64,000 nt of DNA, taken from positions 121,014,126 to 121,078,125 of the forward strand of contig CP136069.1 in NCBI GenBank assembly GCA_032622095.1, written 5' to 3'. A program made the translations under genes and the position numbers. Shown in pieces: positions 5,488 through 62,044 of the stretch; the first letter of the stretch is position 1; every line of letters begins with the position of its first letter. The notes beneath the pieces are model-generated. The model was not told the DNA's origin. It searched no databases and saw only the letters and a program-made list of their open reading frames with translations. The DNA is from Siphonodentalium dalli. Its lineage: Eukaryota; Mollusca; Scaphopoda; Gadilida; Siphonodentaliidae.

Positions 5488-6388
5488 AAATATGGTAAGT
5501 TAGTCAATATATACATCTATTTTGCCAAAATGTGCAATTGCATTGACAATATATCCAGCAACTTTATCAATATATATATATATATGATTAGTTAGTCATT
5601 GTTTGCAGCTGCTTAGTCAATATATGTGGTTAGTTAGTCATTATATGCAGTTACTTAGTCAATATATGTGTCAGTTAGTCATTATTTGCAGCTACTTAGT
5701 CAATATATGTGGTCAGTTAGTCAGTATATGCAGCTACTTAGTCAATATATGCAGTTAGTTAGTCATTATATTTAGCTACTTAGTCAATATATGCAGTTAG
5801 TTAGTCATTATATGCAGCTACTTAGTCAATAAATGTGGTTAGTTAGTCATTATGTGTAGATAATTAGTCAATATATGTGACTAGTTACTCATTATATGCA
5901 GTTTCTTTGTCAATAAATGTGGTCAGTTAGTCAATATATACATCTACTTTGTCAAAATGTGCAATTGCATTGACAATATGTGCAGCTAATTTATCAATAT
6001 ATATGGTTAGTTGGTCATTATATGCAGCTACTTAGTCAATAGATGTGGTTAGTTAGTCATGTTGTGTAGATACTTAGTCAATAAATGCGGTTAGTTAGTC
6101 ATTATGTGTAGATAATTAGTCAATATATGTGACTAGTTAGTCATTATATGCAGTTTCTTTGTCAATAAATGTGGTCAGTTAGTCAATATATACATCTACT
6201 TTGTCAAAATGTGCAATTGCATTGACAATATATGCAGCTAATTTATCAATATATATGGTTAGTTGGTCATTATATGCAGCTACTTAGTCAATAGGTGTGG
6301 TTAGTTAGTCATGATGTGTAGATACTTAGTCAATAAATGCGGTTAGTTAGTCAATATATGCAGTTTCTTTGTCAATAAATGTTTTCAG
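5488..6388 (+). repeat. 21-bp minisatellite, orientation A
   Basis: Tandem 21-base units of the type ttagtcattatatgcagctac alternate with ttagtcaatatatgtggttag, giving a 42-base dimer. Variants with ttgtcaaaatgtgcaattgc recur near 5521, 5946 and 6205, so a higher-order period of a few hundred bases is present. The block flips strand near 6388. Confidence 0.9.
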
Positions 6389-7600
6389 TTAACTGCATAT
6401 AATGACTAACCAACTGCTTATGTTGACTGAGTAACTGCATATAATGACTAACTAACCACACATGTTGACTAAGTATCTACACATAATGACTAATTAACTG
6501 CTTATATTGACTACGTAGCTGCATATAGTGACTAACTATCCGGATATATTGACTAAGTAGCTGCATATAATGACTAACTGACCACATATATTGACTAAGT
6601 AGTTGCTTATAATGACTAACTAACCCCATATATTGACCAAATAGCTGCATATAATGACTAACTGACCAAATATTGACTAATTATTTGCATATAATGACTA
6701 ACTGACCGCATATATTGACTAAGTAATTGCATATAATGACTAACTAACCGCATATATTGACTAAGTAGCTGCATATAATGACTAACTGATCGCATATATT
6801 GACTAATTAGCTGCATATTACTAACTGACCATATATATTGACTAAGTAGCTGCATATAATGACTAACTAACCGCATATATTGACTAAGTAGATGTATATA
6901 ATGACTAACTGACCACAAATATTGACTAAGTAGTTGCATATAATGACTAACTAACCGCATATATTGACTAAGTAGCTGCATATAATGACTAACTGATCGC
7001 ATATATTGACTAAGTAGCTGCATATAATGACTAACTGACCACATATATTGACTAAGTAACTTCATATAATGACTAACTAACCACATACATTGACAATGTA
7101 GATGCCTATAATGACTAACTGACCACAAATATTGACTAAGTATAGTTGCATATAATGACTAACTAACCACATATATTGACTAAGCAGCTGCAAACAATGA
7201 CTAACTAATCATATATATATATATATTGATAAAGTTGCTGGATATATTGTCAATGCAATTGCACATTTTGGCAAAATAGATGTATATATTGACTAACTTA
7301 CCATATTTATTGACAAAGAAACTGCATATGATGACTAACTAACCGAATATATTGACTAATTTGCTACATATATTGACTAACTAACCAAATTAATGGACAA
7401 AGTATTGACCAACTAACCACATATATTGGAAACGTAGCTGCATATATTTGCAAAGTAGCTGCATATATTGACTTAACTAACCACATATATTGACAAATGA
7501 GCTGCATATATTGACTAACTAACCTCCAATATTGACAAAGTAGCCAAATATAATTACAAAGAGGCTGCATCTATTGACTAACTAACCACATATATTTATA
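6389..7600 (-). repeat. 21-bp minisatellite, orientation B
   Basis: These are the reverse complement of the units at 5488-6388, typically tagctgcatataatgactaa and ccgcatatattgactaagta. The 7-residue period leaves a 156-residue minus-strand frame (6658-7128) of repeating SVSHYMQLLSQYM type; this is a repeat artefact. Units degrade after about 7300. Confidence 0.9.
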
Positions 7601-14792: not shown

Positions 14793-15107
14793 CTAGCTGA
14801 TGCGCACGACTTCGTCCTGGCTATTTAGGGATTTCTTTGTGATCACCTCCGTCTGGGCAGAATGTATACAGCGTGTGACAACGTGGAACAATACTGAGCG
14901 AACAACTTAGGAGTTTAGGAGAAAGAAAAAAAACTATTGTTGGATCGGTCCAGAAACATGCCTATATGAGCGTATATGAGCGAGGTCAAGGTCGGAGACA
15001 CGGTCGCATGTGAAATTGGATCCGCCCATATTGCTCCCGGGATCAAAGTACATACATACATACATACATAAATACAGACAGACAGAAGTTCCAAAATATA
15101 TAACAGA
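14793..15107 (-). mobile_element. Helitron-like non-autonomous element
   Basis: Read on the minus strand it starts TCTGTTATATATTTTGG, runs through gacagacagaag microsatellite-like sequence, and ends with a hairpin (ccaggacgaagtcgtg) followed by ATCAGCTAG. The host bases are A on the left and the next element on the right. TC...hairpin...CTAG|T is the Helitron terminal signature. There is no Rep/helicase. The element at 61779-62044 is a close relative in plus orientation. Confidence 0.7.
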
Positions 15108-15318
15108 CTAGCAGTTGACCCCGACTTCGCCCGGGCTTTGACCTTGAATTGATTTTGAAGGTCAAGGTCAGGTCGGAGTCAATATTTGACCTGCCCAAAA
15201 CACTCCCCGGACAAAATTACCCGTATAGGTATCAAATTTCGTCGAAATCCGGGCAGCAGTTTCCCGGCAATAGCTAACAGACAAACAAACAGACAGAAGT
15301 CCCAAAATATATATTAGA
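15108..15318 (-). mobile_element. Helitron-like element joined head-to-tail to the previous one
   Basis: On the minus strand it starts TCTAATATATATTTTGGGAC and ends with gcccgggcgaagtcggg followed by tcaactgCTAG, immediately followed by the TC of its neighbour. It is flanked on the right by T, as expected for insertion between A and T. Length is 211 bases. Confidence 0.7.
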
Positions 15319-52549: not shown

Positions 52550-53215
52550 CTAGCAGGTTAGCCCGCCACTGGCGGCATTCGTCAGAAACATGACAATTTT
52601 TTATTTTTTTAATTAATTTTTTAATTGAATTTTTTGTTTTTCAGTGAGTTAATTTTGCCTTTTTAATTTACTGGCTTTTTTAATTATTTTTTTTTAATTA
52701 ATTTTTAGTTTAATTTTTTGTTTTTCAATTTGACCCGATTTGACCTTGAATTTATCATTCTCAAGGTCAAGGTCAGTTCGGGGTCACAATTTAACCGGTC
52801 CATGACACTTCACGTAGGTAGCAAGTTTGAGCTCAATCGGTTCGAGTCTATAAAGGACACACACATATATATCATTTGTGTGTACCCGTTTCAAGGTGAA
52901 GATCACCTCGGGCGGAAAAACTGACCCGATGAAAATCTCCCTCGTTCCTAGGAAGCCCTAAGTGCGTAAGAATCACACAACACGCTCATGTCTGGATACA
53001 TATGCATGGTCACGCCCGTACACAGACGTAAGACTCACATTACACGCATACGCTCTTTATCAACAACACTGCGGATACGAACGCTCTTTAACTATCAACG
53101 CGATTAAATCCACAGTGCCGCTTTTTTGTGACTCAGAGTGGAGAACGGGTGCTCGGAGCTTCTCCAAAACGCCGCGACGACCATTCCCGAATGAAGTCTC
53201 AAAAGATATAGTAGA
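52550..53215 (-). mobile_element. Helitron-like unit A
   Basis: On the minus strand it starts TCTACTATATCTTTTGAGAC and ends with gccgccagtggcgggctaac followed by ctgCTAG. The left flank is A. The interior has gaccttgaccttgag-type and ctgacccgatgaaaatctcc sequence. No coding frame. Confidence 0.75.
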
Positions 53216-53890
53216 CTAGCAGGTTAGCCCGCCACTGGCGTGGTTGGTCAGAAACATGACAGTTTTAATTTTTTAATGTTTTTTTTTTTTTTTTTTTTAA
53301 TTAATTTTTGGTTTTTCAACATTTTACCCGATTGAATTGGTCATTTTCAAGGTCAAGGTCAGGTCGGGGTCACAATTTAACCCGTTCATGACACTTCCCG
53401 TAGGTATCAAGTGTGAGCGCAATCGGTTCGAGTCTATAAATGACACATGCACACATATATATATAATTTGTGGGTACCCGTTTCGAGGTGAAAATCACCT
53501 AGGGCGGAAAACCTGACCCGATCCGCGTTCATAGGAAGCCCTAAGTACGTAAGAACCACACAACACGCATATATATAATTTGTGGGTACCCGTTTCAAGG
53601 TTAACATCACCTAGTGACGCAATGTAGACAGTGTCGTTCGCGGTGATTTTGATGATTGGGAGTTTATCACTTGATTAACCACCGCAGTGCCGTTCGCGGT
53701 GATTTTGATGATTGTGAGTGGAGAAAGGGTGCTCAGAGCTTCTCCAAAATGCGACAACTACGGTGTCCGTTGGATTTTACCCTTATATACGAAATTTGAG
53801 CTCGATCCGACCAGCCTTTTTCGATTCTATGAAGTACACACACATAACACACACATATATATCCGGAAGTCTCAAAATATATAGTAGAGA
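53216..53890 (-). mobile_element. Helitron-like unit B
   Basis: It is joined directly to unit A: the CTAG of B (53216-53219) abuts the TC of A. Its 5' end reads TCTCTACTATATATTTTGAG on the minus strand and is followed on the plus strand by T. It contains a poly(T) run (53279-53298) and two copies of tttgtgggtacccgtttc. Confidence 0.72.
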
Positions 53891-53976
53891 TATTCCATAA
53901 GTTCAAAACCTGAGAACTTTTTGAAGATCTGACATGTACATGTATATTTTATTATATAATTATATATAATTATCTA

Positions 53977-54903
53977 TCTATTATATATTTTGGAAGATCT
54001 GTGTGTCTGTGTGTGGTCTGTGTGTGTGTGTCTGTGTGTGTGTTCGCGATGAACTCAAAAACGGCCCACCCGATTTCGATGAAACTTGGTATGTGGGGGT
54101 ATTTTCGGCCGGGGACGAACATAGGCCTATTAATTTGTCCGTGCGAGGTCAACTTTTCACGTGCCGAGGTCAAATCTGTTTTTACGCCGTTTTGCGCTAA
54201 TATATTTCAGTTCGGTGCTTACAAATCGATTCGAAACAGCGCGAATAATAACATGCCAGTCATAATAATGACACTATGAGAATCTTTCGTGTTTCCTCTT
54301 TCCAACGATATATAATATGTATGTATCCGTTTTAGTTATCTGCCTCAATTATTAAGAAGAAGTGGTACGATCTTCTATCAGGGTAAAAACAATGCGTAAC
54401 TTCTATGACGTCGTTAGAGGTCATAAAGTTAGATCACGTTAACTCTTCTCCGGCCGATGCATTTGACTGTTTCAGACGTCTTGGCGATATCTCGGGCACC
54501 GATGGTAATTTATCTTTACGTTGAAACTTGATAATTAATGAGCGTGTGTATATGAGGCGCGTTTATATACTTCAGTGGAAATCAAATCGGGTTAAACTGG
54601 CGGATTTTTTCGGACGAAATTTGATGCATAGGGTATCTCGGTATCCGCTGGGCCGATTTCCCGGTATCCGCTGGGCCGATTTCCACCATTTTTGGGGTGT
54701 TGGTCCACCTGACCTTGACCTTCAAAATGGTCAATTCAAGGTCAAATCGGGTAAAACCGGATGGATTTCGACGGGTACTTTTGTCGGGTACTTTTGTTCG
54801 GGCACTGTGTTTTGGACGGGTCAAATCGTGACCCCACTTGACCTTGGCCTTCAAAATAGACAATTCAAGGTCAAAGCCCGGACGAAGTCGGGTCACCTTC
54901 TAG
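53977..54903 (+). mobile_element. Helitron-like unit C
   Basis: It starts TCTATTATATATTTTGGAAG after A and ends with gcccggacgaagtcgggtca followed by ccttCTAG and T. It holds a (TG)-rich 5' part and partial 130-bp repeats (gacctgaccttgacctt). Unlike its neighbours it belongs to the gacgaagtc hairpin subfamily. Confidence 0.72.
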
Positions 54904-55836
54904 TACTATATATTTTGAGACTTCCGTATATATATATATATGTGTGTGTACTTTATAGAATCGAAAACGGCTGGCTCGATTGAGTTCAAACTTCCCATCT
55001 AAGGGTAAACACACACGAACACCGTAGTTGTCGCGTTTTGGAGAAGCTCAGAGCACCCGTTCTCCAATCTCAGTCACAAAAAACGGCACTGCGGTGGTTA
55101 ATCAAGTGATAATTTAATGAGCGTTTGTTTTTGACGCATCGCTATAAAGAGCGTCTGTTTACCATTCAACGTTATTAGTATCTGCGGAGAGATATACGGG
55201 ATTTTGAGTGGTTTCCTATGCGGGGAGATTTATTGGATGCCATAATACTCTTACAACATCATTGTTATAGTATGTATGACACTTAGGTCAGGGCTTGGGG
55301 AGGGGGGTTAGTTAGTGTGGATATAGGCATAATGCTTCTCAGAAATCCCGGTTACAAACCAACACTCACAATTTCGTCTTTTGCATCAGATACCAACACC
55401 TCGACCGATCGGGACGAAACTTGGTAAGTGAGTGTAGTTTGACCAGGTGGTCGTCGTTGTCGTATTGGCGAGCCCGTGCGACGCCTTGCAGCGCATGCAC
55501 AGACGAGATCTCGGAAACGGGTGGAGCTTTCGACTTGAAATTTGCTATGTGAATGTATCTTGCCCCGGATACGAATTTTATCGGGTCGCCGAGCCCGTGC
55601 GACGCCAGCTTCGCGCATGCGCAGACCAGATCTCGGAAAGGGTGGAGCTACCGACTTGAAATTTGGTTTTTGAATAGCCCGGACAACGTCGGGCTCAACA
55701 ATTTTTCATCGGGTCAGTTCTTTCCGCCCGATGTACCTTAAATCTTTTAGGGACGGGTACCATAATTTCTCGTTGAAAAGCCAAAACAAATGTCATGTTT
55801 CGGACCAACGCCGCCAGTGGCGGGCTAACCTGCTAG
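54904..55836 (+). mobile_element. Helitron-like unit D
   Basis: It starts TACTATATATTTTGAGACTT directly after the CTAG of unit C, so the initial TC is missing, and ends gccgccagtggcgggctaac followed by ctgCTAG. The interior has cggaaacgggtggagctttc and gagcccgtgcgacgcc. Confidence 0.7.
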
Positions 55837-56698
55837 TCTATACTATATATTTTGAGACTTCCGTATATATATGTGTGTGTGTGTGTGGTTACTTTATGGA
55901 ATCCAAAACGCGTGTACAGATCGAGCTCAAACTTCGTATGTATGTGTGAAATCCCACGGACACCGCCGTGGTCGCGTTTTGGAGAAGCTCAGAGCACCCG
56001 TTCTCCAATCTCTGTCACAAAAAACGGCACTGCGGTGGTTAAGACATCAACGATCTTTATATTGACCTTGTACGGAGGTGTTATCAATTAACGCTCTTTA
56101 TTGCAATGGACGTGGCTAAACGACTGACCCCATGCGTCTGAAATACGGATGCGGATTCCAATGGACGTGGCTAAACGACTGACCCCATGCGTCCGAAATA
56201 CGGATGCGGACGAAATGCAATTATCTCGACTGTATATTGCAGAGGGATTTCACGACGGGATTAATTGACTGTCCGCTCTGAAGTTTAGGACGGGGAGGAC
56301 GGGTACCATGAATTAACTCATTGAAAAACAAAGAATGCGTTATCTCGGAAACGGGTGGAGCTTTCGACTTGAAATTTGCTATGTGAATGTATCTTGCCCC
56401 GGATACAAATTTTATCGGGTCGCCGAGCCCGTGCGACGCCAACTTCGCGCATGCGCAGACGAGATCTCAGAAACGGGTGGAGCTATCGACTTGAAATATA
56501 CTATGTGAATGTATCTTGCCCCGGATACGAATTTTATCGGGTCGCCGAGCCCGTGCGACGCAAGCTTCGCGCATGCGCAGACCAGATCTCGGAAACGGGT
56601 GGAGCTATCGACTTGAAATTTGGTTAAATTAAAAAAATGTCATGTTTCTGAAACAAAGCCATGAGACGAATGCCGCCAGTGGCGGGCTAAACTGCTAG
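55837..56698 (+). mobile_element. Helitron-like unit E
   Basis: Starts TCTATACTATATATTTTGAG and ends gccgccagtggcgggctaaa then ctgCTAG. A 55-base segment (aatggacgtggctaaacgac...) is tandemly doubled at 56098-56215, and the ~122-bp cggaaacgggtggagc unit occurs twice. Confidence 0.75.
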
Positions 56699-56960
56699 TC
56701 TACTATATAATTTGAAACTTCCGTATATATATGTGTGTGTATATATGTGGGTACTTCATAGAATCGAAAACGCGTGTACAGATTGATCGGGCTCAACCCG
56801 GACAACGTCGGGCTCAACAATTTTTCATCGGGTCAGTTCTTTCCGCCCGATGTACCTTAAATCTTTTAGGGACGGGTACCATAATTTCTCTTGATTAAAA
56901 AGGCACCATTAAAATGTCATGTTTCTGACCAACGCCGCCAGTGGCGGGCTAACCTGCTAG
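56699..56960 (+). mobile_element. Helitron-like unit F (short)
   Basis: A 262-bp unit, TCTACTATATAATTTGAAAC to gccgccagtggcgggctaac ctgCTAG. It keeps the termini and the acaacgtcgggctcaacaat piece but lacks the 122-bp repeats, so it is an internally deleted form. Confidence 0.75.
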
Positions 56961-58893
56961 TCTATACTATATATTTTGAGACTTCGTATATGTGTGTGTG
57001 TGTACTTCATAGAATCCAAAACGCGTGTAAAGATTGAGCTCAAACTTCCTATGTAAGTGTCAAATCACACCGACACGACCGTGGTCGCAGTTTAGAAAAG
57101 CTCAGAGCACCCGTTCTCCAATCTCAAATCACCGCAAAGGCACGGCGTGGGTTAATCAAGTGATTATTTAATGAGCGTTTGTTTTTGACGCATGTCTATA
57201 AAGAGCGTCTGTTTGCCATTCAACGTTATTTGCATCTGCAGAGAGATATACGGAACATACATTAAATTAAAAAAACATTTGTTTCTGACCAACCCTGCGA
57301 GCACGGATGGCGCGCTTTGTTTTTACAGTATATAATAATATACCGAAATCATCCCAGATAATCACGAATATAGCATCAGATTTCTCCCCAGATATAGCTA
57401 CTGGAATCTGCCAATCTACGGGAAATTCCAGGGAATGCCGATTGAGCTCAAACTTGCTACCCACGGGAAGTGTCATATTTTTGAGTGTGTCCTTTATAGA
57501 CTCGAACCGATTGAGCTCAAACTTGCTAAATAAGAAAATAGCCCCCAAGCCGTAAATATCAACAACAACGATATTGCTACCTACGGGGAGCAACGTTGTT
57601 AGCATCTGCAGAATTATGCAGACAGAAAGTGCTTTCCTATTTTTAGAACGCAACACATGTTTACGTCGCGTTGGTGATTGAGGTTCACAACGGGGTTAAT
57701 TGACTGTCCGCTCTTTGCGACGATGAGGTTCACGGCGGGGACTATTGACCAACACTCACAATTTCGTCTTTTGCATCAGATACCAACACCTCGACCGATC
57801 GGGACGAAACTTGGTACGTGAGTGTAGTTTGACCAGGTGGTCGTCGCTGTTGTATTGGCGAGCCCGTGCGACGCCCGTGCAGCGCATGCGCAGACGAGAT
57901 ATCGGAAACGGGTGGAGCTATCGACTTGAAATTTGGTATGTGAATGTATCTTGCGCCGGGTACAAATTTTATCGGGTCGCCGAGCCCGTGCGACGCCAGC
58001 TTCGCGCATGCGCAGACCAGATCTCGGAAACGGGTGAGGCTACCGGGTACAAATTTTTCTTATTGAAACGCGTGGAGCTAAAAATAAAAAAAATATATAT
58101 AAAAACATGTCATGTTTCGGACAAGCCGCCGGTGGCGGGCTAACCTAATCTGCCAATCTACGGGAAATTCCAGGGAATGCCGATTGAGCTCAAACTTGCT
58201 ACCCACGGGAAGTGTCATATTTTTGAGTGTGTCCTTTATAGACTCGAACCGATTGAGCTCAAACTTGCTAAATAAGAAAATAGCCCCCAAGCCGTAAATA
58301 TCAACAACAACGATATTGCTACCTACGGGGAGCAACGTTGTTAGCATCTGCAGAATTATGCAGACAGAAAGTGCTTTCCTATTTTTAGAACGCAACACAT
58401 GTTTACGTCGCGTTGGTGATTGAGGTTCACAACGGGGTTAATTGACTGTCCGCTCTTTGCGACGATGAGGTTCACGGCGGGGACTATTGACCAACACTCA
58501 CAATTTCGTCTTTTGCATCAGATACCAACACCTCGACTGATCGGGACGAAACTTGGTACGTGAGTGTAGTTTGACCAGGTGGTCGTCGCTGTCGTATTGG
58601 CGAGCCCGTGCGACGCCCGTGCAGCGCATGCGCAGACGAGATATCGGAAACGGGTGGAGCTATCGACTTGAAATTTGGTATGTGAATGTATCTTGCGCTG
58701 GGTACAAATTTTATCGGGTCGCCGAGCCCGTGCGACACCAGCTTCGCGCATGCGCAGACCAGATCTCGGAAACGGGTGAGGCTACCGGGTACAAATTTTT
58801 CTTATTGAAACGCGTGGAGCTAAAAATAAAAAAAAAATATATAAAAACATGTCATGTTTCGGACAAGCCGCCGGTGGCGGGCTAACCTGCTAG
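56961..58893 (+). mobile_element. Helitron-like unit G containing a 742-bp tandem duplication
   Basis: Starts TCTATACTATATATTTTGAG and ends gccgccggtggcgggctaac ctgCTAG. Bases 57405-58146 are repeated at once as 58147-58888 with only a handful of substitutions. The first copy stops eight bases into gctaacct, just before the CTAG end, so the duplication breakpoint lies inside the terminus. Confidence 0.8.
57405..58888 (+). repeat. 742-bp tandem duplication, two copies
   Basis: Copy 1 is 57405-58146 and copy 2 is 58147-58888, both starting aatctgccaatctacgggaa. I counted about five or six differences, including a C/T in ctcgac(c/t)gatcggg and a change in an A run, so the event is recent. Mirror frames in the two copies are duplicates, not paralogous genes. 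Confidence 0.95.
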
Positions 58894-59703
58894 TCTCTTC
58901 TATATATTTTGAGAACTCCTTGTATTCGAGAGATAGCCCACACCCTCCGGACCTCAATGATATGATCGTGAATGAGTATTGATATACCCCACTAAACTTT
59001 GACAAACACCATTAATGGTGTGTAGATCATTTACATATCTCTCCTATATATTTTGATACAATCTATCTAATTTACATATCTCTCTTATATATTTATGTTT
59101 GTGTGTGTGTTGTGTACTTCATACAAATCTACGATTCTCGACCGATCGGGACGAAACTTGGTACGTGTGTGTAGTTTGACCAGGCGGTGGTCGTAGTCGT
59201 GGTCGTAGCCCGTGCGACGCCCGTGCAGCGCATGCGCAGACGAGATCTCGGAAACGGGTGGAGCTATCGACTTGAAATTTGCTATGTCAATGTATCTTGC
59301 GCCGGGTACAAATTTTATCGGGTCGCCGAGCCCGTGCGACGCCCGTGCAGCGCATGCGCAGACGAGATCTCGGAAACGGGTGGAGCTATCGACTTGAAAT
59401 TTGCTATGTGAATGTATCTTGCGCCGGGTACAAATTTTATCGGGTCGCCGAGCCCGTGCGACGCCCGTGCAGCGCATGCACAGACGAGATCTCGGAAACG
59501 GGTGGAGCTATCGACTTGAAATTTGGCATGTGAATGTATCTTGCGCCGGGTACAAATTTTCATGCGCAGACCAGATCTCGGAAACTGGTGGAGCTACCGG
59601 GTACAAATTTTTATTATTGAAACGCGTGGAGCTAAAAATTAAAAAAATATATATAAAAATGTCATGTTTCGGACAAGCCGCCGGTGGCGGGCTAACCTGC
59701 TAG
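58894..59703 (+). mobile_element. Helitron-like unit H, possibly nested
   Basis: It begins TCTCTTCTATATATTTTGAG and ends gccgccggtggcgggctaac ctgCTAG. Further TC starts (tctctcctatatattttgat at 59038 and tctctcttatatatttatg at 59078) suggest two more 5' ends nested within, so this may be two or three overlapping insertions. Three ~122-bp repeats fill 59206-59560. Confidence 0.65.
59206..59570 (+). repeat. ~122-bp tandem repeat, three copies
   Basis: Each unit runs from gcccgtgcgacgcccgtgca through cagacgagatctcggaaacg and cttgaaatttgctatgtgaa to gggtacaaattttatcgggt. Copies start near 59208, 59330 and 59452. The same unit occurs once or twice in units D, E, G and J. Confidence 0.88.
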
Positions 59704-60879
59704 TCTATACTATATATTTTGAGACTTCGTATATATGTGTGTACTTCATAGAATCCAAAACGCGTGTACAGATTGAGATCAAATTTCGTATGTAAGTGTA
59801 AAATCCCACCGACACCGCCGTAATCGTGTTTTCGAGAAGCTCTGAGCACCCTTTATCCACTCCCAGTCATCGAAATCAGCTCAAACGGCACGGCCGGGGT
59901 TAATAACGTCATTATATATATATATGAAGTCAGAGTCTCCAAAGTTATACCGGAACAAACACGTGTTTACGTCGTCTTGGGGGTCCACGATGGGAGTCTG
60001 ACTTCAATGCAATGTTATCGCTCGAAACACGTGTTTACTTCGTGTTGAGGTTCACGATGGGAGTCTGACAATTGTTATCGCTCGAAATAGTACATTAGGA
60101 CGGGAACGGCTGGACAGATTGAGCTCAAACTTCCTATCTAAAGGTAAAATACCACGTACGATGTCGTCCACGCGTTTTCCAGAAGCTCCGAGCACCCGTA
60201 CTCCACTCCCAGTCATAAAAATCAACTCAAACGGCACGGCCGGGGTTAATAACGTCATTATATATATATATACGAAGTCAACGTTATTAGCATCTGCATT
60301 GAGTGCATTTCCTAGAACGCAACACGTGTTTTACGTCGTCTTGAGGTTCACGATGGGAGTCATTTCAATGCAATGTTATCGCTCGAAACACGTGTTTACT
60401 TCGTGTTGAGGTTCACGATGGGAGTCTGACATTTCAATGCAATGTTATCGCTCGAAATATTATGCAGAAAGGTAGATCTCGGAAACGGGTGGAGCTATCG
60501 ACCTGAAATTTGCTATGTGAATGTATCTTGCACCGGGTACAAATTTTATCGGGTCGCCGAGCCCATGCGACGCCCGTGCAGCGCATGCGCAGACGAGATC
60601 TCGGAAACGGGTGGAGCTATCGACTTGAAATTTGCTATGTGAATGTATCTTGGGCCGGGTACAAATTTGATCGGGTCGCCGAGCCCGTGCGACGCCAGCT
60701 TCGCGCATGCGCAGACCAGATCTCGGAAACGGGTGGAGCTACCGGGTACAATTTTTTCTTATTGAAACGCGTGGAGCTAAAAATTAAAAAAAAATATAAA
60801 CAAATGTCACAATTAACTCATTGAAAAACAAAAAATGTCATGTTTCGGACAAGCCGCCGGTGGCGGGCTACCCTGCTAG
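59704..60879 (+). mobile_element. Helitron-like unit J
   Basis: Starts TCTATACTATATATTTTGAG and ends gccgccggtggcgggctacc ctgCTAG. It contains a ~66-bp internal repeat (aatgcaatgttatcgctcga, then aacacgtgtttacttcgtgt) at 59985-60450, two copies of the 122-bp unit, and twice an attatatatatatat tract. Confidence 0.75.
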
Positions 60880-61778
60880 TTACTATATAATTTGAGACTT
60901 CCGTATATATATATGTGTGTGTGTGCATCTTTGTCCTCTATAGACTCGAAAACGACTGGCTCGATTGAGCTCAAACTTCCCATCTAACGGTAAAAACACA
61001 CGGGAATCGTCGTCGCGGCGTTTTGGAGAAGCTCTGAGGACTCATTCTCCACTCCCAATCATCAAAAAACGGCACTGTGAGATTAATCGTGTTGATAGTT
61101 AAAGAGCGTTCGTATCAGCAGTGTCATTGATAAAGAGCGTATGCGTGTAATGTGATTCTTACGTCTGGGCCCGGGCGTGAGCGTGACTGTATCCAGACAT
61201 GAGCGTGTTGTGTGATTCTTACGTACTTGGGGCTTGATTGATTGTTTATTGTTTATTGGTGATATAATGAATACTTATGTTTATGACAATTATAATACAA
61301 GAAGAGTATAACATTATATCACCAGGGGATGACGTAATCTCGAGGACTGTCTTCCTGTCATCCCCTGGCGCAGATTTGGTGATTAAGGCCTGATTATATA
61401 ATCAACGTATGTACAAAAATCATGTGAGTGATTCAAGTGGTGTCTCTGGTCCATAACTAAGCTCTTTTCTTGAATGAGTAATTGGTTATTGCAGGAGAGA
61501 TGATGCTCGGGGCTTCCTAGGAACGGGGGAGATTGAGCTCAAACTTGCTACCTACGGGAAGTGTCGTGGACTGGTTAAATTGTGACCCCGACCTGATCTT
61601 GACCTTGAAAATGATCAATTCAAGGTCAAATCGGGTCAAATTGAAAAAAAAAATTTGAATTAAAAAATTAAAAAGTCACAATTAACTCATTGAAAAACAA
61701 AAAATTAAATTAAACAAATTTTGTTTTTAAATTGTCATGTTTCTGACGATTGCCGCCAATGGCGGGCTAACCTGCTAG
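60880..61778 (+). mobile_element. Helitron-like unit K, interrupted by an insertion
   Basis: Starts TTACTATATAATTTGAGACT after a CTAG (initial TC lost) and ends gccgccaatggcgggctaac ctgCTAG. A 273-bp insertion at 61236-61508 splits the segment that in unit A reads continuously (gttcctaggaagccctaagt in the opposite orientation). Confidence 0.75.
61236..61508 (-). mobile_element. Retroposon-like insertion with 7-bp target duplication
   Basis: ggggctt is duplicated at 61229-61235 and 61509-61515, and unit A preserves the uninterrupted site. The left edge, gattgattgtttattgttta, reads on the minus strand as a caataaacaataaacaatca tail, typical of a LINE or SINE 3' end. An internal inverted pair (caggggatgac, gtcatcccctg) is present. 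No RNA pol III boxes are evident. Confidence 0.65.
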
Positions 61779-62044
61779 TATTATATATTTTGGAAGTTCT
61801 GTGTGTATGTATGTATGTATGTATGTGTGTTATAGACCCGAAAACTTCTCGACCGATCCGACTCAAATTTGGTATGCAGGCCTACTTCCTGATCACAGGA
61901 ACAATATGGGCGGGTCCAATTTCACGTGCGACTGTGTCCTTGACCTTGACCTCGATATACGATCGAACTTTATATTCTGCCCAGACGGAGGCGATCACAA
62001 AGAAATCCCTAAATAGCCCGGATGAAGTCGAGCATATCAGCTAG
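61779..62044 (+). mobile_element. Helitron-like unit L
   Basis: Begins TATTATATATTTTGGAAGTT after a CTAG and ends with gcccggatgaagtcgagc followed by atatcagCTAG and T. The interior (accttgacctcgatatacga, ctgcccagacggaggcgatc) matches the element at 14793-15107. It closes the array. Confidence 0.75.

Follow-up and report, generated by a model that had tools for sequence, protein, structure and literature searches.

How do unlike Helitrons come to stand end to end? The question is raised by a stretch of the genome of the scaphopod mollusc Siphonodentalium dalli (NCBI GenBank assembly GCA_032622095.1, contig CP136069.1, positions 121,014,126 to 121,078,125 of the forward strand; 64,000 nucleotides, hereafter the window). 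An earlier note on this sequence had described eleven Helitron-like units joined end to end at positions 52550-62044, and had expected such a concatemer to result from rolling-circle read-through or from repeated insertion at 3' ends. We arrive at a different origin, to which we assign a probability of about 0.8: newcomers insert into the 5' end of a resident copy, and mixed chains of one orientation are built serially in this way.

The count of eleven units was borne out, as were the range of unit lengths (262-1933 bp) and the CTAG|5'-end joints at every coordinate given for them. The units do not form a single chain, however, but two divergent runs separated by 86 bp, with two units in the minus run (52550-53890) and nine in the plus run (53977-62044). 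All eleven have CTAG as their 3' terminus (CTRR type). Nine of them share the 3' end GGCGGGCTAACCTGCTAG or a close variant and are here called family A (the letters A, B and C are labels coined in this analysis). The first and last units of the plus run (53977-54903 and 61779-62044) have termini unlike those of the remaining units and make up family C, with 5' TATTATATATTTTGG and 3' CTTCTAG or CAGCTAG. At up to three mismatches the 5' word had six matches in the window, five of them at unit 5' ends and one internal (59038), while none was found in 100 shuffles. The proposal that TC starts abut hairpin-CTAG ends held in part: six of the nine inner joints have a TC start behind CTAG, but the units at 54904, 60880 and 61779 begin TACT, TTAC and TATT, which we read as truncation. 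Likewise, a stem can form before CTAG, with CCGCC AGT GGCGG possible in two of the three tails that were folded and a shorter stem in the third, but the folding energy of these tails was no better than that of shuffles (z -0.20, -0.29 and -0.24).

The units in the window are real canonical Helitrons (Helitron1). Hallmarks of such elements are a 5' TC, a 3' CTRR after a hairpin, an A|T target and a RepHel protein. To compare the minus run with empty sites, the joined flanks together with the spacer were searched genome-wide, and 40 of 1,205 first-look candidates were scored. Among the 42 matches listed to the joined flanks, three were the window itself and 39 were other places spanning the minus-run joint, with identities of 81-86% and, in one case, 74%. 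Because all 14 of the paralogous places fetched from these 39 were unbroken at the joint, the minus run must have inserted between A and T without loss or duplication of bases. It begins with TC behind a host A and ends with CTAG, the termini that the earlier note had proposed. A genome search found no paralogue for the right-hand flank of the plus run. The A|T preference postulated for copies elsewhere was found as well. Outside the main joint class, T followed 98 of 100 listed 3' ends, and the base preceding 100 listed 5' ends was A in 85, T in 15 and G in none, all of these listed ends being from chromosome C1. In a second family (family B), T stood next to the 3' end at 40 of 40 unselected places. 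Membership of the Helentrons (Helitron2) was rejected on the target alone, which is A|T and not TT or T-rich.

In the mechanism that we propose, a newcomer would enter at an A|T step within the first bases of a resident copy (A|TCTA|TACTATATAT...). Use of the first A|T would give a perfect CTAG|TC joint and would also recreate an A|T step ahead of the newcomer. Use of the second A|T, that of TCTA|TACTATATAT, would leave a TCTA stub upstream and a downstream resident that starts with TACT and is without TCTA. Each unit's 5' end would be a possible target, and repetition over time and across families would produce chains of unlike units in a single orientation. Both scars can be seen around the family C unit 53977-54903, where TCTA (53973-53976) on one side and TACTATATATTTTGAG (from 54904 on) on the other jointly amount to the consensus family A 5' end. 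This TCTA is probably the stub of a resident 5' end, although it could be host sequence instead; the order of insertions in the window is likewise one that we infer.

The same joints recur throughout the genome. The exact joint word had 2,507 genome matches and a flexible family A joint 3,763, with no matches for the reversed control in the first case or for the control in the second. The 5' word TACTATATATTTTGAGACTTC had 7,660 genome matches, which were preceded by TCTA in 4,087 cases, by CTAG in 1,766 and by anything else in 1,807 (by subtraction). Five A|T steps are present in the 5' end; the first accounts for 2,507 joints and the second for 1,766, as counted with words of different length, while no joints at the other three steps were present among 10 genome matches (the reversed pattern gave 27). 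For the family B 3' word there were 17,333 genome matches. In the first 40 listed family B 3' ends, which were unselected, another Helitron's 5' end came next in 25 when a strict word was used, and in 29 with a looser word, four of which were judged false.

Stubs and truncated joints were also linked in position. On chromosome C1, a truncated joint lay within 3 kb downstream of 17 out of 34 stubbed 5' ends, as compared with none out of 37 unstubbed ones, that is, those with A before them (Fisher P = 2e-7). Within 1.5 kb the corresponding values were 8/34 and 0/37, and for 5' ends with T at -1 a truncated joint was present within 3 kb in 2 of 13. In the upstream control, a truncated joint was near 5/34 stubbed and 2/37 unstubbed ends. 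This test comprised the 84 of 100 listed 5' ends that fell within the range of the truncated-joint list, the other 16 being dropped. A stub behind CTAG is necessarily part of an array, and this gives it an advantage in such a comparison; stubs in host flank alone are free of that bias, and 7 of 17 had a truncated joint within 3 kb downstream.

Several observations weigh against 5'-end insertion as the builder of these chains. Genome-wide, the 871 stubs and the 1,766 truncated joints are unbalanced, which could be due to duplicated truncated units or to stubs that precede 5' variants or members of other families. No truncated joint was found within 3 kb of half of the stubs, and host DNA has TCTA repeats too. 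In nine further arrays, chosen for having both scars and counted in the fetched stretches only, stubs and truncations stood at 1:1 in four (L111, L114, L116 and L117), stub-like TCTA or TCTTCTA outnumbered truncations in four others (L109, L110, L112 and L113), and stubs were the fewer in one (L115). In the window itself, no matching stub was identified for the 5' ends at 60880 and 61779. Finally, three identical units were found in locus L027, a repeated two-unit block in L028 and a repeated three-unit block in L030.

The likeness of neighbouring units was scored as matches divided by the longer length, using 61 units cut from the window and from 21 loci that had been picked partly for regular joint spacing. 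Window neighbours scored 0.12-0.70 at the eight of nine joints covered, with unit 58894-59703 taken 144 bp short. Unit 59704-60879, in turn, scored 0.979 with a unit of L067 at another locus. In L029, the five joined pairs scored 0.60-0.90, and for six of its seven units a score of 0.94 or more was reached with units from other loci. Mixed chains such as these are best explained by serial insertion, while some arrays have been multiplied by tandem duplication or read-through. The repeated block of L030 (C1:49027500-49037000), with units of approximately 1301, 1118 and 1301 bp, is like a higher-order repeat.

Under a rolling-circle model with read-through, the transposase would run on past the 3' end, so that several copies of one element enter together with exact CTAG|TC joints. 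Among the forms of joint the exact one is the most frequent (2,507), which would be in line with this, as would the three adjacent identical units of L027 (1125 bp each) and two 1164-bp units of L024 with 98.9% aligned identity; furthermore, exact-joint circles are generated by Helraiser (PMC4778049). For the chain in the window we nevertheless regard read-through as an unlikely origin, since the neighbours there are so dissimilar (0.12-0.70) and come from different families, three of the nine joints are not CTAG|TC, and read-through does not predict truncated joints linked to stubs, scars that indicate 5'-end insertion. Unequal exchange or segmental tandem duplication could have produced the repeated blocks of L028 and L030 and the 300-bp stretch that recurs identically 742 bp on within unit 56961-58893. 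It is, however, quite improbable that such events built the array from a few starting units, because unlike units that meet at base-exact CTAG|5'-end boundaries, as those of the window do, cannot be brought together in this way.

Insertion at the resident's 3' end, the other route named in the earlier note, would also produce the exact joint, provided that G|T could serve as a target, and it has been weighed for a maize pair (PMC2267711). The 3' end offers G|T rather than A|T, but before TC there was A in 85 and G in 0 of the 100 listed 5' ends outside the joint class. Moreover, such an insertion would neither truncate the 5' end of the downstream unit nor leave an upstream stub, whereas the scars point to resident 5' ends, and we give this route very little credence. 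Even less likely is an assembly artefact. The analysis drew on assembled sequence, but base-exact forms are kept in thousands of joints, the minus-run boundaries are proven by empty sites, and the assembly consists of 9 contigs of chromosome size (2.23 Gb).

If newcomers insert into resident 5' ends, the sequence around the target step is of interest. In 15 of 19 flanks following 3' ends, TATA started at +6, compared with 0.78 (standard deviation 0.85, maximum 4 in 1,000 draws) for AT-content-matched A|T sites of the window. These 19 flanks belong to the 3' ends without an adjoining 5' end (word, two mismatches allowed) among 84 distinct ones in the window and loci; 14 of them are from places picked by eye as unlike known 5' ends, and two (L032 538 and L043 1386) are internal rather than host, neither with TATA at +6. 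For family B, TATA was present at +4 to +7 in seven of eight distinct host flanks (control mean 1.54, maximum 6 in 2,000 draws). The family B and C 5' ends (TCTCATATATA, TCTATTATATA) have TATA at +6 of the first A|T, and in the family A 5' end TCTATACTATATA it lies at +8 counted from the first A|T and at +6 counted from the second. Because TATA thus occurs near the same distance from A|T in both, the 5' end of the element resembles the target, and this resemblance may cause the clustering. Two observations speak against the proposed mechanism: in family B, TATA was at +6 in only two of the eight distinct host flanks (control 0.40), and in the commonest family A joint it is at +8 and not at +6. 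More speculatively, and we consider this rather doubtful, the 5' terminus might act as a landing pad. Insertion would then be steered to TATA-box-like DNA (A|T followed some 5 bp later by TATAWA), with TBP or the single strands exposed by promoter-type melting as possible guides, and the elements would keep their own TATA at a similar position because mutual landing is a harmless haven. If this were true, the arrays would represent a self-targeting strategy and not an accident of replication.

The earlier note had also called for an autonomous copy with Rep-helicase and shared termini. A RepHel copy between family A termini was indeed found on chromosome C1 (L013 and L017), but its coding sequence is broken. 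Specifically, three frames lie between TCTATACTATATATTTTGAG and GGCGGGCTAACCTGCTAG, with the termini about 8.5 kb apart; the first frame matches Helitron_like_N, the second has no Pfam match and the third matches PIF1. No intact family A copy was present among the Rep matches examined (part of 151). In L016, an intact RepHel frame of 1614 amino acids lies between TCTCATATATATTTTGAAG and CATCGGCTAG, which are family B ends, and these ends abut family A ends. We infer that the RepHel protein of this lineage performs the 5'-end insertions. The region C1:13714967-13786363 has dense family A and B ends as well as this intact frame. A second class of Rep matches, consisting of low-scoring PF14214 matches of about 91-94 bits with open frames of up to 2864 amino acids, is perhaps Helentron-like.

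Joined Helitrons have been described in other organisms. At maize r1, two unlike Helitrons are joined CTAG|TC (Du et al. 2008, PMC2267711), and the authors give insertion between the host A and the resident's 5' T, or at the 3'-end G|T, as options, with the order unsettled. That report concerns one pair, whereas the present genome has stub and truncation scars throughout, and runs of up to nine units. Tandem Helitrons in Metarhizium and self-insertions of FoHeli are on record, and 5'-end insertion was considered for three fungal tandem copies (PMC5148889); unlike the present elements these are non-canonical, with other termini and another target, the cases are few, and the accessible text offers no explanatory target motif. 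Tandem Helitrons are furthermore known from bat, silkworm, rice, maize and Drosophila (PMC4067079, PMC5148889, PMC5876387, PMC12628747). Some authors explain them by termination being bypassed or by rolling-circle amplification acting on truncated copies (PMC4067079, PMC5876387, PMC12628747), and rolling-circle transposition has been argued from head-to-tail joints (PMC5876387). In bat and maize, distantly related Helitrons also adjoin (PMC4067079, PMC5148889, PMC5876387, PMC12628747). The window resembles the bat, silkworm and plant arrays in its head-to-tail arrangement, but each of its units has its own 3' end and its neighbours are unlike.

Transposable element dimers of Drosophila arise by double insertion (McGurk and Barbash, via PMC12628747), and these tandems, too, are attributed mainly to insertion-site preference and not to replication. 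That work is, as far as the citing account goes, not about Helitrons, and here it is the resident's 5' end that appears to be the preferred site. As for the target, Helraiser prefers A|T and AT-rich DNA, most strongly on the transposon's 3' side, and its 701 retransposition sites were not clustered near donor sites (PMC4778049). The A|T, AT-rich target is alike in both systems, but the accessible part of that report states no fixed-distance TATA. An A|T preference was likewise reported for a wheat Helitron family (PMC13286980), and in rice, Mothra elements were found inserted between A and T (PMC4683698). A search of the openly licensed literature turned up no description of either a near-constant TATA distance or stub-and-truncation scars, which is weak evidence of novelty. 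The value of the joint scars is that they can separate read-through from insertion, and 5' from 3' insertion; as one genome supplies thousands of cases, counts can put the question to the test. With a TATA at near-constant distance in the target, the A|T rule would become more precise and clustering would have a possible cause, and Helitron chains, possible raw material for satellite DNA, would gain an origin in target choice.

Table 1. Units of the two Helitron runs and the spacer between them (window positions).
Feature	Positions	Strand	Remarks
Family A, second unit of minus run	52550..53215	-	666 bp; outer 3' flank T GATATATATACGGG; outer boundary from empty sites
Family A, first unit of minus run	53216..53890	-	675 bp; host A before TCTCTACTATATATTTTGAG; outer boundary from empty sites
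Host spacer between divergent runs	53891..53976	.	86 bp; last 4 bases (53973-53976) are TCTA
Family C unit	53977..54903	+	927 bp; sits between TCTA and TACTATATATTTTGAG
Family A unit	54904..55836	+	933 bp; 5' end without TCTA
Family A unit	55837..56698	+	862 bp; exact CTAG|TC joint
Short family A unit	56699..56960	+	262 bp; CTAG|TCTACT joint
Family A unit	56961..58893	+	1933 bp; exact joint; internal direct repeat spaced 742 bp
Family A unit	58894..59703	+	810 bp; CTAG|TCTCTTCTATATATT joint
Family A unit	59704..60879	+	1176 bp; exact joint; closest sampled relative elsewhere (0.979, L067)
Family A unit	60880..61778	+	899 bp; joint begins TTACTATATAATTTGAG, no TC
Family C-like unit	61779..62044	+	266 bp; joint begins TATTATATATTTTGG, no TC; outer 3' flank TATTATATATG

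Repeats are also present within single units. The 300-bp stretch mentioned above, at 57405-57704 and again at 58147-58446, looks like a recent local duplication. A 122-bp tandem repeat occurs within units at 56342-56619, 59207-59560 and 60474-60741, with 2.2-2.9 copies each, and is a possible satellite seed. In L018, L019, L026 and L117, Helitron-like TCTA starts border the sequence CTGGAATCTGCCAA at one and the same base; this sequence is also found at window positions 57398-57420, where it continues as TCTACGGGAAATTCC, and it may represent a shared target or a captured segment. Away from the chains, the minus strand of the window contains a Helitron joint of another family, CTAG|TCTGTTATATATTTTGGAAC, at 15107, together with two words at 15313 and 18799 that resemble 5' ends of this type. 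Lastly, positions 5578-7596 are occupied by an AT-rich 21/42-bp satellite, which from about 6382 to 7596 appears as its own reverse complement and so forms a head-to-head array.

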